Of a stretch of 64,000 nucleotides of DNA, positions 47,632-52,495 are shown piece after piece. Origin of the DNA: Bifidobacterium sp. N4G05 (lineage in GTDB: Bacteria; Actinomycetota; Actinomycetes; Actinomycetales; Bifidobacteriaceae); NCBI RefSeq assembly GCF_002742445.1, contig NZ_NJNQ01000001.1, forward strand, positions 1-64,000, given 5' to 3'. Each line of letters opens with the position of its first letter. The stretch's first letter is position 1. The translations under genes were made by a program, and so were the position numbers. The notes under the pieces were generated by a model. That model did not search any database and was not told the origin of the DNA. It saw only the letters and a program-made list of their open reading frames with translations.

Positions 47632-47859
47632 ATGAGCGAAAACGTCGACACCATCTGCGTGCATGGAGGCTACCAACCTGCAAACGGTGAATCCCGCACG
47701 CCCCCGATCATTCAGGCGACAACCTTCAAATACAAGTCAAGCGAACAGATGAGCCGACTGTTCGACCTATCCGAATCCGGATACTTCTACACCCGACTGC
47801 AGAACCCAACCAACGACGTCATCGTTGATCTCGATCAGGCACTCGCCGCTGTGCAGTGA
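47632..47859 (+). pseudogene. Remnant of O-acetylhomoserine sulfhydrylase (metY) with internal deletion
   Basis: 75 codons. Residues 1-~62 are the conserved N-terminus of the Cys/Met-metabolism PLP enzymes (TICVHGGYQP, PPIIQATTFKY, GYFYTRLQNPTND). The last ~13 (VIVDLDQALAAVQ plus stop) look like the normal C-terminal end of MetY, where DLxxAL precedes the stop. About 350 residues, including the PLP lysine, are missing between them. A GAAAGAAG ribosome site and a downstream hairpin are retained. It is not a functional enzyme. Confidence 0.85.
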
Positions 47860-47918: not shown

Positions 47919-47983
47919 TCCTATCCGAGTAGACTCGCACGCCATACTCATCTTGCACGGGCGCACCAATCATCTGAAATCCC

Positions 47984-48155
47984 TTATATGTGGCAGATTA
48001 AGGCATCTTCAAAATCCGATTTGCGCTATATGTGGCAGATTCACACTACATTCGAGGGTATAAATCCATAGAAAAATCCCGTTAAGAAATCTCAGGTCTG
48101 CCACATATAGCGATTTTGACTTTTCCAGCACCGTGGAATCTGCCACACATAACGG
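47984..48155. repeat. 42-bp-phased inverted repeat array 1
   Basis: Four copies of the ~13-bp core TATATGTGGCAGA: forward at 47985 and 48027, inverted (CTGCCACATATAG and the variant CTGCCACACATAA) at 48098 and 48140. Within each orientation the copies are exactly 42 bp apart. The spacers are unrelated. It lies between the convergent metY remnant and amidohydrolase and touches the amidohydrolase stop. The rest of the ~300-bp gap holds only the hairpin at 47881. Confidence 0.9.
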
Positions 48156-48158
48156 TTT

Positions 48159-49658
48159 TCATTCAGCCTGTTGGTACGTCCAGCGACCGGCAAGCATAGT
48201 GCCAAGCACATGCTCGGGCATGGCACGCATGGCCTCCGGAGAATCGATTATGCTCGGATCACAGTCCAGAAGTACCAAATCGGCCGCATCTGCGTCCCGC
48301 AAAGCCACGCGTCCGACCGCGGTGGACGAAGCGAGCGCCGTTTCAAAATCAAGGCACTGCTCAGGTTGGAAAGGCTCGCGGTCGGAACTTTCCGTACCGA
48401 ATACCGCCGCGGAGATGGCCAGCCATGGGTCCAGCGGCGCGACCGGCGCATCCGAACCCATGAGCAGTTTGGTCCCCGCCTTATGCAGGCTATTGAATGC
48501 GTAAGGGATTCCGGCGGGGGTGCCCCAGAATCGCGCGATGACGTCACGATCGTCCATGGCGTGCTGCGGTTGGATGCTTGCGGCAAGTCCCAGCTGCGCG
48601 AGTCGCGGAATGTCGCACTCCTTGAGCATTTGGGCATGCTCAATGGAACCATGCGCATGGGTGCGTTCGACACAATCAAGCACAATGGTGTTCGCTTCAT
48701 CGCCGATGGCATGACAGGCGATGTCGAAGTCATGTTCGACGGCGAGTCGCATGTACGACTCGATTTGCTCAGGGACATAGCTCAATGTACCGTAGGTTTC
48801 CGGTCTGATGCCCGAATATGGCATGGAACAGTAGGCGGAACGGGTGTTGAGCGAGCCATCGGAGATCATCTTCATCGCGCCGACGTGACCCAAACCATGA
48901 CTTCCGGGCAATTCGTCTCCGGTGTGCCAGCCGTCGTCGATGGCTTGCCGGAGTCTCTCGGGATATATGCCAACCTCGACACGCAGACCATCAAGCCCTT
49001 GCGAGAATCGGTTAATCCACGTGTCGATGTTCTCCGCCATCTCATAGTCGCGCACGCCGACCACGCCTTTACTCGCAGCGTCGTGTTCGGCGTTGCGCAA
49101 CAGATGCATCAGCTCATTGGCCGCACCAGGTCCTTTGTCCAGCTTGCAGTAGGCGTCGAACCACTCAAGCTCGCCGACGAGTCCGGATTCGTCCACATCT
49201 ACGCCAAGCTTGCGCGCGGCGGCAGAGTTCACCCAACCGCAATGCATATCGGCACTTGACAGCGCCACCGGCTGGTCTCCCGCCACCGCATCGATCGCGG
49301 CCAGGGTCGGCTGGGCGTCATCGGACCACAGGGAATGCCGGAAGCGCATGCCGACCACATATTGGTTCGGGTCGAGTGCGCCGCTTTCACGACGCTCCTC
49401 CAAGTGCCGACGCAACATGTCGAGCGCTTCGCCGGCACTGCGTGCATCAATCAGATCGAGCCGTCCCAATGTGTACGACCACTGCGTGAAATGTGTGTGG
49501 CAGTCCCACAATCCGGGAATCACCCATATCTTCGAAGCAGCATCCGTTGGCCCTTCCGAAGGTCGCACCGAAGCTATTCGCCCGTGACCGACAGCAATGT
49601 CGACCGGCTTATCCGAACCTACGAAACACACGTTTTCAATCACACACGGCTCGCCCAT
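48159..49658 (-). CDS. Amidohydrolase, YtcJ-like
   Basis: 499-aa metal-dependent hydrolase. The barrel metal motif HxH is in WDCHTHFTQW (~50-59). SSADMHCGWVNSAAARKLG, ACHAIGDEANTIVLD and LLMGSDAPVAPLDPW are further family blocks, and the beta-sandwich end is typical. No signal peptide is present. Members are annotated as exoenzyme-regulatory or N-substituted formamide deformylase-like; the substrate here is unknown. It is a stand-alone gene in an accessory-looking stretch between the two repeat arrays. Confidence 0.85.
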   Translation of the reverse strand: MGEPCVIENVCFVGSDKPVDIAVGHGRIASVRPSEGPTDAASKIWVIPGLWDCHTHFTQWSYTLGRLDLIDARSAGEALDMLRRHLEERRESGALDPNQYVVGMRFRHSLWSDDAQPTLAAIDAVAGDQPVALSSADMHCGWVNSAAARKLGVDVDESGLVGELEWFDAYCKLDKGPGAANELMHLLRNAEHDAASKGVVGVRDYEMAENIDTWINRFSQGLDGLRVEVGIYPERLRQAIDDGWHTGDELPGSHGLGHVGAMKMISDGSLNTRSAYCSMPYSGIRPETYGTLSYVPEQIESYMRLAVEHDFDIACHAIGDEANTIVLDCVERTHAHGSIEHAQMLKECDIPRLAQLGLAASIQPQHAMDDRDVIARFWGTPAGIPYAFNSLHKAGTKLLMGSDAPVAPLDPWLAISAAVFGTESSDREPFQPEQCLDFETALASSTAVGRVALRDADAADLVLLDCDPSIIDSPEAMRAMPEHVLGTMLAGRWTYQQAE

Positions 49659-49855: not shown

Positions 49856-50794
49856 ATGGACAATGGAGCACAATATTCTGAGAGTCTCGCGCAGCTGCGG
49901 GCGCGTACCATCGAACAATGCCTTGCGGCGCAGCAACGAACCGGTAAGCAGCTAGTGTTTACACACAGCACGGCATTATGCCTGCAAAGAACCGAGATGC
50001 CAAGATATCCCGATCAGCAAATGCTGTCTTCTCTGCATGCCCTTGCCACAGATAACAACGCACGCACGCATCTTCGAAACGTCCAATTTGAACTGTGGAC
50101 AGGACCAATCATCGAAACCGCTACGCATTATGGCAAGATTCGCCATACGGATCCAGTAACCACATGGGCAATGCACGCGAATCGGCTTCCCCAAGAAGAA
50201 CTGATAACGCTTGGCGATTCAATGCTAAGAAGGAACCAACGTTTTTCCCAAGTCTGCATTGACGACTTCCATGAATATCTGGAACGGCTCAAAGATTTCA
50301 GCAACTACGCGAATGCGAATAGACAACGTCCCATCCGAGGAATCAGAAAAATGCAACATGCGTTACAGCTCATGCGCGAAGGCACGGATTCCTCGCAGGA
50401 AAGCCGTTGCAGGATTGCTCTGATTCGCAATGGGCTACCATGCCCGAAAGTCAACTGGAAGGTTCGACTGAACAATGGGAAAATCGCGCTTTTGGATATG
50501 GCCTATCCAGATATAAAAGTGGCCATCGAATACGACGGAAGACATCATGCCGGCCAATGGCTCGCCGACAGCAAGAGACGTGAAGCCTTAGAAGATGACG
50601 GTTGGGCATACATTCAAGTGACCGCCGAAAACCTTATGAACGACTTCGAGGAACGGGCACTCGCGCAACGCGTGGCCGACCGGATGAGCCAACGATTAAG
50701 CACGCCCATCATGCTCTGTCAAAGAATGCCCTCGGGAAGGATACACATCCGCATAACGTCTCTCGCCAATGGAAGCAGAAAGATTCTCATCTGA
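49856..50794 (+). CDS. DUF559-domain protein (putative PD-(D/E)XK nuclease fold)
   Basis: 312 aa. The C-terminal ~130 residues resemble DUF559/Vsr-like proteins: a conserved Glu (~182), LLDMAYPDIKVAIEYDGRHH with Asp214 and Glu225 as likely metal ligands, then GWAYIQVTAENL. The N-terminal ~170 residues (VFTHSTALCL..) resemble those of AbiEi-like/DUF559 proteins common in actinobacteria. ATG 49856 is chosen because a TATTCT box ends 6 nt before it (leaderless type) and no ribosome site exists for the longer frame from 49694. Function is unproven. Confidence 0.75.
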   Translation: MDNGAQYSESLAQLRARTIEQCLAAQQRTGKQLVFTHSTALCLQRTEMPRYPDQQMLSSLHALATDNNARTHLRNVQFELWTGPIIETATHYGKIRHTDPVTTWAMHANRLPQEELITLGDSMLRRNQRFSQVCIDDFHEYLERLKDFSNYANANRQRPIRGIRKMQHALQLMREGTDSSQESRCRIALIRNGLPCPKVNWKVRLNNGKIALLDMAYPDIKVAIEYDGRHHAGQWLADSKRREALEDDGWAYIQVTAENLMNDFEERALAQRVADRMSQRLSTPIMLCQRMPSGRIHIRITSLANGSRKILI

Positions 50795-50800
50795 AAGCCA

Positions 50801-50978
50801 CTATATGTGGCAGATTTGCCATCCCCGGACAAACCAAAACCGCTATATGTGGCAGACCAGACTGGTTTCAAGCTTCAAAAGACCCCAATCAGTACCCCCT
50901 AGACGAGATTTTCCTTGGGAGACTGCCACATATAACGGAAATCATTTTTCTGAAATGCCAAAAACTGCCACATATAGG
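50801..50978. repeat. 42-bp-phased inverted repeat array 2
   Basis: Same core and geometry as array 1: forward CTATATGTGGCAGA at 50801 and 50843, inverted CTGCCACATATA at 50923 and 50965, each pair exactly 42 bp apart. It starts 7 bp after the DUF559 stop and lies between convergent genes. The inner gap between the forward and inverted halves is ~67 bp (59 bp in array 1). Confidence 0.9.
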
Positions 50979-51022
50979 ACATTTCAAACTGAAAACACGG
51001 CATAGACATATCACCTTTTTCG

Positions 51023-51898
51023 TCAGATCGAAGACAGCATTTCGAAAACGTCATCATCATCGACGACGAGGCTATCGATTTTGCGGCGGCCGAGTTCGCG
51101 CAGCCATTCGTCGGGTTCCGTATCGGCGAGCGCACGGATGTCGAGATGCAACGGCTTGTGCCTTCCGACCACCACCTCGTTAGCATCTACAGCTTGGACC
51201 GGCCCGTCGAAATGGGCAAAGGCACCATCCGAAACATCCAGCCGATCCTTCCGACCCGGAAGGCGTGCGGCACTTCCCACCGATCCTTCCGTACCGTTCG
51301 AATTACCCGGAGCACCCGTACGGCCACCAGTCGGACATATGCCCAACACCGCCGCATACGTGTCATATAGCCCGCGTCGACGTACAGCGTATTCGGCATC
51401 AGATTCCTCCGCATGTTTTCTGCCGTCCACAATGTACGGCATTCCTGTGGTGATGTAGTGGAAGAAATGGCGATTGATGGCGTCGCATTCCGCCCGCATC
51501 ACGTCATATACCACTTCCACACCGGTTTCCTCAAGAATGCGAAGTCCTTTGCCGGCCACGATGGGATTCGGATCGATCGAACCGACCACGACGCGCGTTA
51601 TGCCGTGCGAAAGAATTAGATCGGTGCATGCCGGCTGCGATCCGACATGGCAGCAAGGTTCGAGAGTGTCGATGACCGTGGCTCCATGCATGTCGATACC
51701 ATGCTTGTCGGCGTAGTCGAAGGCCATGCGTTCCGCATGCGGTCCGCGGTAGCGGTCGTGGTATCCGGCTGCGAGAATCTCGCCGTCGCGAACCACCACC
51801 GTGCCGACCAACGGATTCGGATTCACCCAACCGGCTCCCTTATGGGCCAGTTCCAGCGCCTGCGTCATGTATTTCCGATATTGAGGCATGTCATCCAT
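51023..51898 (-). CDS. RibD-like riboflavin deaminase with degenerate reductase half
   Basis: 291 aa. Residues 1-~145 are a full pyrimidine deaminase domain: GAGWVNPNPLVGTVVV, PHAERMA (zinc His, catalytic Glu) and EPCCHVGSQPAC (zinc Cys). The C-terminal ~145 residues should be the NADPH reductase, usually ~220 aa, but they are short. The GRKHAEESD stretch and the end IDSLVVDDDDVFEML only faintly recall it, and the EGG motif is lost. A Gly/Asn/Ser-rich insert separates the parts. No other rib gene is near. The start is uncertain; MDDMPQYRKYM at 51898 fits RibD best. Confidence 0.75.
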   Translation of the reverse strand: MDDMPQYRKYMTQALELAHKGAGWVNPNPLVGTVVVRDGEILAAGYHDRYRGPHAERMAFDYADKHGIDMHGATVIDTLEPCCHVGSQPACTDLILSHGITRVVVGSIDPNPIVAGKGLRILEETGVEVVYDVMRAECDAINRHFFHYITTGMPYIVDGRKHAEESDAEYAVRRRGLYDTYAAVLGICPTGGRTGAPGNSNGTEGSVGSAARLPGRKDRLDVSDGAFAHFDGPVQAVDANEVVVGRHKPLHLDIRALADTEPDEWLRELGRRKIDSLVVDDDDVFEMLSSI

Positions 51899-52069
51899 GG
51901 TTCCAAGCATATTGCGTCGATTGCAGTTCCACATTTCAAAATCGCCACGAGACATTCCGTAAATGGATAGGCGCGAACCGGTCATCCGTTCCATCGCCGT
52001 ACGGCGTCGCACAATAACGCCATACAATGTTGGCAGACCAGCAAAGGAACCAGCGAGAGGAAACATCAC

Positions 52070-52495
52070 ATGCAGCGTGAAATCATGACGTCTATCCCAT
52101 TTCTGAGCCAACCGTCCGTCGAGGCCGAAAACACCGAAGCGGATTTAGTCGCGGCACAGGACTTGAAGGACACGCTTGACGCGCATCGCAATGGCTGCGT
52201 GGGCATGGCGGCCAATATGATCGGCGTGTCCAAACGCATCATCGCGTTTGTGGACGAGGATTTGGGTGGCCGTATCACCGTCATGTTCAATCCTCACATC
52301 ACCGCGCAGGACGGCGCCTACGACGCTTCCGAAGGCTGCCTGTCCCTCAATGGCGAGCGTCATACGTTGCGATACCAACGCATTGAGGTGACGTATGCGA
52401 ATCGCAAGTTCCGCGAGCGCCATGCCACGTTCACTGGTTTCACCGCGCAGATCATCCAGCATGAGATCGATCATTGCGACGGCGTGGTCATCTGA
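52070..52495 (+). CDS. Peptide-deformylase-like protein
   Basis: 141-aa member of the deformylase family. Motif 2 EGCLSL (Cys90) and motif 3 QHEIDH (His131, Glu132, His135) keep the metal ligands and general base. Motif 1 reads GMAANMIG, with Met50 where active deformylases have Gln. Such short proteins form a recognised divergent branch. It has a GAGAGGA ribosome site and is divergent from the RibD-like gene. Deformylase activity is uncertain; a second, canonical def elsewhere is expected. Confidence 0.82.
   Translation: MQREIMTSIPFLSQPSVEAENTEADLVAAQDLKDTLDAHRNGCVGMAANMIGVSKRIIAFVDEDLGGRITVMFNPHITAQDGAYDASEGCLSLNGERHTLRYQRIEVTYANRKFRERHATFTGFTAQIIQHEIDHCDGVVI

Follow-up and report, generated by a model that had tools for sequence, protein, structure and literature searches.

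The DNA analysed here is a stretch of 64,000 nucleotides (the window) from Bifidobacterium sp. N4G05, a gut bacterium. It contains a short motif that occurs twice in forward and twice in inverted orientation between two convergent genes, a metB-like frame (end at 47859) and an amidohydrolase gene (end at 48159). The locus raises the question of what kind of element this arrangement, termed array 1, represents, and why its spacing should be so regular. An earlier note, made from the letters alone, had drawn attention to the core motif, TATATGTGGCAG, which is indeed present on the forward strand at 47985 and 48027 and on the reverse strand at 48098. The fourth copy also lies where the note had placed it, at 48140 on the reverse strand, but it is a one-mismatch form, TATGTGTGGCAG, and not an exact copy. 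Both pairs of cores are spaced by exactly 42 bp. The repeat unit, R, is 24 bp and not the 13 bp originally proposed, and reads approximately TATCTCGCTTATATATGGCAGATT in the commoner type of this genome. The spacers, which had been called unrelated, are so within array 1, but across the family they follow a weak consensus (0.41–0.49 identity between unrelated loci).

Allowing up to two mismatches, the window holds 11 core matches against 2.6 expected, a number reached in none of 100 shuffles. A further array, arranged in the same way and absent from the earlier note, is found 2.8 kb downstream (array 2, with cores at 50802, 50844, 50923 and 50965). A motif-free detector, which compares four 20-bp windows and has no knowledge of the motif, was applied to the window in 2.2-kb pieces and scored 72 or above at array 1 and array 2 only. 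The features of the region are given in Table 1. The metB-like frame at array 1 encodes 75 aa; the short form is also present in genome G040, and G019 and G020 are about 1 kb longer here.

Table 1. Array sites and neighbouring genes in the window.
Feature	Position	Strand	Model match	Remarks
Array 1, site R1	47976–47999	+		24 bp
Array 1, site R2	48018–48041	+		42 bp from R1
Array 1, centre	48042–48094			Contains TTCGAGGGTA; R2–R3 anchor distance 82
Array 1, site R3	48095–48118	-		Inverted
Array 1, site R4	48137–48160	-		Inverted; one core mismatch
Array 2, site R1	50793–50816	+		Starts at the stop of the DUF559-like gene
Array 2, site R2	50835–50858	+		
Array 2, centre	50859–50919			R2–R3 anchor distance 90
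Array 2, site R3	50920–50943	-		Inverted
Array 2, site R4	50962–50985	-		Inverted; array 2 spans 50793–50985
DUF559-like (PD-(D/E)XK / Vsr-type) gene	49856–50794	+	PF04480	312 aa, counted from the ATG that relatives conserve
Amidohydrolase gene	48159–49658	-	PF07969	Between arrays 1 and 2
metB-like (Cys/Met PLP enzyme) frame	47632–47859	+		Cut down
RibD-type deaminase gene	51023–52111	-	TIGR00326, 152.9 bits, just under the cut-off of 156.35	Far side of array 2

Array 1 belongs to a large family. The earlier note had proposed a search for further copies, and these are numerous and extragenic, both in this genome and in other bifidobacteria. The 2.07-Mb genome contains 13 exact cores (none for the reversed control), and a second core form, TATATATGGCAG, with one mismatch allowed, reveals many more arrays; a model of the half-array gives 37 matches at an E-value of 1 or better. 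About 16 arrays could be laid out, several of them with a decayed outer site, and a recount that required both inner cores returned 15, among which six have four cores within one mismatch and six have three. A full array is about 190 bp in length and consists of R1, an 18-bp spacer, R2, the centre, an inverted R3, a further spacer and an inverted R4, although single and half copies are also present in this genome. None of 69 copies examined for gene context lies within a predicted gene. On the same crude gene calls, which left six copies at locus edges unplaced, the neighbours of the 63 placeable copies are convergent in 24 cases, tandem in 28 and divergent in 11. The placement between convergent gene ends therefore holds for array 1 but not as a rule for the family, and the preference for 3' ends predicted from it amounts to at most a moderate excess.

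Across a comparison set of 112 genomes of the genus, one per species, the half-array model finds matches in 21, with 39, 45 and 23 matches in G045, G059 and G060, respectively. Copy number and locus content vary between close species. Plasmids and phages gave no match to array 1 at an E-value of 1e-3, and viral contigs gave 10 pattern matches. Fifteen loci from the pattern scan outside the bifidobacteria were passed through the motif-free detector and scored 54–67, except for L118 at 90; L118 and L157, from one Myxococcota genome, were rejected as arrays, being plain 42-bp tandem repeats that match the pattern and are unrelated. Neighbour genes common to several of the array loci collected first were likewise discarded, as the largest of the top 25 groups looked like frame-shadow matches in GC-rich frames and orthologous neighbourhoods. 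Several unusual loci were encountered. L189 (G020:C1:1402290-1402507) has five sites in total, three of them direct R copies spaced by 42 + 42 bp, whilst L017 (G000) holds two arrays 925 bp apart with near-identical centres. At the rfbB locus (L017, L257, L258, L259, L260), genes that resemble RelB/RelE and MazF, named by eye from their translations, lie between R sites. A second dispersed palindromic repeat, approximately TGTCCGATTCTGCAGAAACGGACA, occurs in several copies beside arrays in G000 and G060 (L014, L029, L208; e.g. G000:C4:322200-325400).

The spacing within the arrays is strikingly uniform. The earlier note had asked whether it varies freely, and it does not: with 28–58 bp allowed in 14 genomes, 91 of 95 direct core pairs are 42 bp apart (orthologues entered separately), the others being at 41 (twice), 46 and 50, and the reversed control gave no pairs. 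The inner distance, from R2 to R3, is similarly restricted. Earlier array lists had admitted set inner distances only and so biased the phase statistics, hence an unrestricted recount was used, which took every adjacent pair of converging sites 20–320 bp apart flanked by a partner site on one or both sides and imposed no class. From four lineage types, 108 of 111 distinct stretches have an inner distance of 80–82, 90–92 or 101–103. Two of the remaining three, at 123 and 144, equal a class distance plus 42 with one site missed, and the third, at 56 (L232, G059:C45), is a true exception. The one-turn classes are also broken by a short-centre array at G059:C1:8074-8163, where the inner distance reads 47; among 74 inner matches, two are R2–R4 pairs of one short-centre array, at two places in G059:C1. 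The 101–103 class comes from a second lineage (G016, G021, G024, G032, G054 and G067) with an R of approximately TATCTCGCTTACAAGGGGTTGATT, which also shows inner distances of 91 (four loci) and 80 (one locus). The class centres of about 81, 91 and 102 bp give steps close to 10.5 bp, with 10.25 and 11 not separated. The stretches are non-independent by descent, yet the class switches within types and within lineages. The distances in the arrays are thus whole helical turns, as in phased protein sites, and binding of protein to one face of the helix, as the earlier note had suggested, is the likeliest cause of the constant phase.

The inverted layout could in principle reflect base pairing between the two halves of an array, but the two halves do not appear to be coupled. 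For both the outer and the inner R, identity within arrays equals identity between arrays (36 arrays of three types; permutation p 0.23–0.91), and the two spacers of an array are likewise uncoupled. Slight coupling (0.75 versus 0.70, p 0.015) is confined to the palindromic middle of the merycicum/pongonis centre. The left and right copies of R vary independently, which argues against a hairpin, and they behave as separate samples of what is, from the sequence, one putative binding site. Neither window array is marked by a terminator scan, and neither matches Rfam at the gathering threshold. In 16 orthologous groups of close species the outer R has 15 variable columns out of 655, compared with 39 out of 540 in the spacers (p 6e-5) and 234 out of 3105 in the flanks (p 9e-8). 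As the outer R is less variable than both, R is held in place. The inner R (25 of 737 columns) was left out as evidence because the loci had been chosen by exact inner cores and are therefore biased.

The sequence of R is lineage-specific, whilst the geometry and often the position are kept. A pattern built from the constant parts, CTCGCTTA-N9-GATT, matches in 29 of the 112 genomes, eight of which have unrelated middles only and look like chance matches; elsewhere the middle differs by lineage (TATATGGCA, TAGATGGCG, CAAGGGGTT, CGAGGGGCT, CGTGTGGCA and others). The region after metB illustrates this. In G019, G020 and G069 an array of the G type follows metB, and the same place is occupied by arrays of other R types in G001 (X), G045 and G059 (M) and G030 (its own type); across these genomes the first R anchor is 28–133 bp past the stop. 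There is no array after metB in G060, and metB is cut down in G000 and G040. At two further loci, arrays of different R type are swapped likewise, but there the whole intergenic regions differ. One locus in G001 (L250, L251) has a G-type and an X-type array side by side, an arrangement that would explain how a position changes type. The order of the amidohydrolase and DUF559-like genes is as in the window in G019, G020, G040 and G069. In G001 the segment carrying these two genes has the opposite orientation, both of its junctions bearing an array, and G001 and G030 have in common the order DUF559-like gene, array, metB, which is taken here to be the older one.

The DUF559-like gene is itself linked to the arrays. 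Linkage was examined in 29 genomes, of which nine had been noticed through coinciding coordinates, an array lying beside the gene in G000, G019, G020, G040, G069, G001, G030, G024 and G016. The other 20 species were chosen without looking (nine of them suspected to carry arrays, the other 11 with no known array), and the motif-free detector was run 3' of the best homologue in each. An array was found there in 18 of the 20, with scores of 69–120, whereas neither 100 shuffles nor 14 control loci from the genus exceeded 61. The array lies 134–425 bp beyond the point where the matched coding region ends, and with the R1–R2 spacing left free between 30 and 60 the best value is 42 in all 18 gene-linked arrays. 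A register shift prevents the detector from fixing the absolute inner distance, so that only distances anchored on ATCTNNNTT are given; at the 12 readable gene-linked loci these are 91–92 or 101–102 in 11 and 105 in L352. The two species with no linked array are G028 (L350, G028:C1:660340-661950), which scored 62, one above the shuffle maximum, with no R-like sequence, and G015 (L358), which scored 60. The homologue of G028 has an in-frame TAG; a TAG is also present in the homologue of G001, which has a linked array. On the far side of the array, the neighbour falls into nine groups over 23 loci, namely a trpS-type gene (8), a symporter-type gene (6), both named by eye, metB (2), ribD (in the window) and five others, so the link between gene and array is not one conserved block. 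Eight genomes, including G024, where the neighbour differs, have a further array or R site 1.66–1.89 kb from the other end of the gene.

The gene-linked arrays also predict R elsewhere in the same genomes. The genomes G031, G041 and G053 had given no earlier match to the half-array model or to the constant-part pattern. A pattern taken from their gene-linked arrays, CTGCGTTA-NN-GGTAGTG, occurs 79, 46 and 19 times in them, respectively, once in G062 and not at all in the 108 others, nor in the reversed control, and most of the listed copies are paired 42 bp apart. Arrays are only weakly clustered around the gene: among listed copies, G041 has three others within 50 kb against 0.44 expected (P 0.008; P 0.05 within 100 kb), and G031 has one within 50 kb (P 0.46) and four within 100 kb against 1.23 expected (P 0.03).

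The protein encoded by the window gene matches PF04480 modestly (E 3.9e-5; 23.9 bits, just above the cut-off of 20.6), and its matches to the PvuRts1I-like and MTES_1575 nuclease models fall below their cut-offs. PADLOC gives a weak match only, to a methyl-directed restriction enzyme (E 2e-5). The nuclease signature residues (TDSS-E, LD-AYP and IEY-D/E-G-HH) are kept in G000, G024 and G016, two of these being distant homologues whose partial sequences miss an E-value of 0.01. No DNA-binding domain was recognised in the protein, and the AlphaFold model, with a mean pLDDT of 41, is unusable. At an E-value of 1e-10, homologues are present in 81 of the 112 genomes, many of which have several. The heavy array carriers G045, G059 and G060 have none at this threshold, implying that the homologue has diverged there or that another protein serves in its place.

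Taken together, the DUF559-like family and the arrays are probably partners, R being bound by the protein in the form of a phased multimer. The partnership would resemble that of REP sequences with their RAYT transposase, though with an enzyme of another class. In an intact array, four directional 24-bp sites lie along the same helical face, the two pairs of sites facing each other across a centre whose length is locked to whole helical turns. Several copies of the nuclease-type protein would bind along this face, and the units on R1–R2 and on R3–R4 may then touch across the short phased centre and close a small loop. The protein may perhaps also nick the DNA at the arrays. The arrays distributed over the chromosome would be both targets and descendants of the protein, and the outcome would be either that the arrays spread or that the chromosome is served. 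The earlier note had envisaged a dispersed element mobilised by a specialised enzyme, for which the linked nuclease-like gene is perhaps the candidate. A broader proposal, which we put forward more tentatively, is that a PD-(D/E)XK nuclease family and phased four-site arrays form an undescribed two-part system in which protein and site change together, giving every lineage a site sequence of its own whilst the geometry stays fixed, and in which the nuclease may spread or maintain the arrays, as an independent counterpart of REP/RAYT with a different class of enzyme and a looped complex. If correct, this would point to a function for a so far uncharacterised protein family, supply naturally matched variants of protein and site in which the evolution of DNA specificity could be followed, and provide a dispersed bacterial repeat defined by helical phase and not by a hairpin.

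A partnership of nuclease and array has to be weighed against other readings of the same observations. The arrays could be platforms for a different DNA-binding protein, concerned with chromosome architecture or the insulation of gene ends, with the DUF559-like gene merely retaining an old array at its 3' end. The constraint on the outer R would be consistent with such platforms, as would the post-metB position kept across carriers of four R types, the three heavy carriers without a detectable homologue and a bias towards the origin (one-sided KS p 0.005–0.036, mutually non-independent) in five complete genomes that are related and begin at or close to dnaA. An old, passively retained array is harder to reconcile with a gene–array link that spans nine far-neighbour groups and with gene-linked arrays that predict the genome-wide sequence of R. 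The bias towards the origin is not seen in G031 or G041, where 4 of the 19 and 5 of the 14 listed arrays, respectively, are in the near half (partial lists, origin unlocated). We consider this reading unlikely. It appears less likely still that the arrays are old non-autonomous, MITE-like elements, now mostly relics, in which R formed the transposase-binding ends. Mobility of this sort would suit the differences in copy number and locus content between close species, the two near-identical centres of L017, the three direct R copies in G020 and the inverted, end-like layout. Free transposon ends, however, have no need of a centre distance locked to helical turns, and the outer R is constrained in place. 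Moreover, 69 pairs of arrays with unrelated flanks reach a centre identity of 0.7, but among the 30 listed only L222/L231, from two species, exceed 0.79. Three aligned orthologous regions offered no clean empty site, and the transposase-family search of the genomes covered Y1_Tnp only.

The inversion in G001, where arrays mark both junctions of the amidohydrolase and DUF559-like segment, might suggest that the arrays are paired recombination sites that invert or exchange the DNA between them, and the gene–array–metB order common to G001 and G030 and the toxin–antitoxin-like genes (named by eye) between R sites at the rfbB locus could be read in the same way. This is a single inversion, though, which ordinary homologous recombination between inverted repeats can explain, and no linked recombinase was encountered on unsystematic inspection; such a function is very improbable. 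Hardly credible is the remaining alternative, that the arrays act through RNA or as cruciforms, forming long hairpins that serve as terminators or stabilise 3' ends. It can draw on the inverted layout, on the slightly coupled palindromic centre of the merycicum/pongonis type (p 0.015) and on the share of convergent neighbours (24 of 63), but R1–R4, R2–R3 and the spacers are without compensation, the terminator scan and Rfam passed over both window arrays, and steps of 42 bp and of one turn would be needless for a hairpin with loose internal loops.

Binding sites arranged in whole helical turns are familiar from the ara and lac operators, where DNA looping depends on this spacing. The arrays share the whole turns between sites, but they occur in dozens of dispersed extragenic copies with four sites each and mostly do not lie between divergent genes. 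The ends of Mu and of Tn7-type elements contain several directional protein sites of about 22 bp in inverted orientation, a layout that resembles the putative sites of the arrays; in contrast, the inner distance of the arrays is fixed to helical turns and the array contains no cargo. Chromosome-organising sites of the nucleoid-occlusion type are depleted near the terminus, and the five related genomes mentioned above show an origin bias, whereas G031 and G041 show the opposite trend (partial lists, dnaA unlocated). A CRISPR array was rejected, as the repeats number four and switch strand midway. The product of the window gene resembles DUF559 and Vsr-like PD-(D/E)XK proteins through its match to PF04480, and no link to dispersed repeats is apparent in the titles and abstract openings of the listed papers that name DUF559.

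The closest comparison is with REP/BIME elements, to which the earlier note had likened array 1. RAYT (TnpA-REP, Y1 HUH) genes are flanked by REP repeats. Like the REP/BIME–RAYT system (background in part from PMC3116915 and PMC8266576), the arrays are short extragenic repeats in many copies, arranged in inverted groups, with a lineage-specific sequence and a repeat that flanks a protein gene. Membership is nevertheless not borne out. The arrays consist of four directional 24-bp sites with strict 42-bp and one-turn spacing, and not of palindromic units that fold into hairpins, and their R copies show no pairing constraint. By inspection, individual R copies of the A type are imperfectly palindromic, but the R of the second lineage is not. 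The A-type consensus, the only type inspected for this, is without the tetranucleotide tags GTAG and CGTC named for REPs in PMC3733652, a paper in which a term search finds no mention of Bifidobacterium. The array-linked gene is of the PD-(D/E)XK type and the arrays have no association with Y1_Tnp (PF01797), which is present in seven of the 112 genomes and does not follow them: five of the seven are carriers (G016, G019, G059, G060 and G069), and it is absent from the carriers G000, G001, G020, G040 and G045. REPINs, described in PMC8049555 as populations of paired inverted repeats that persist and are passed on vertically, are similar in these respects, but the arrays differ in having four sites, a phase-locked centre, another partner gene and an outer R constrained in place. 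Among the PMC matches listed, no description of the arrays is apparent from the abstract openings. The known kinds compared with the arrays fail on either geometry or partner. If the DUF559-like protein proves to move them, the system would belong with the REP/RAYT kind.
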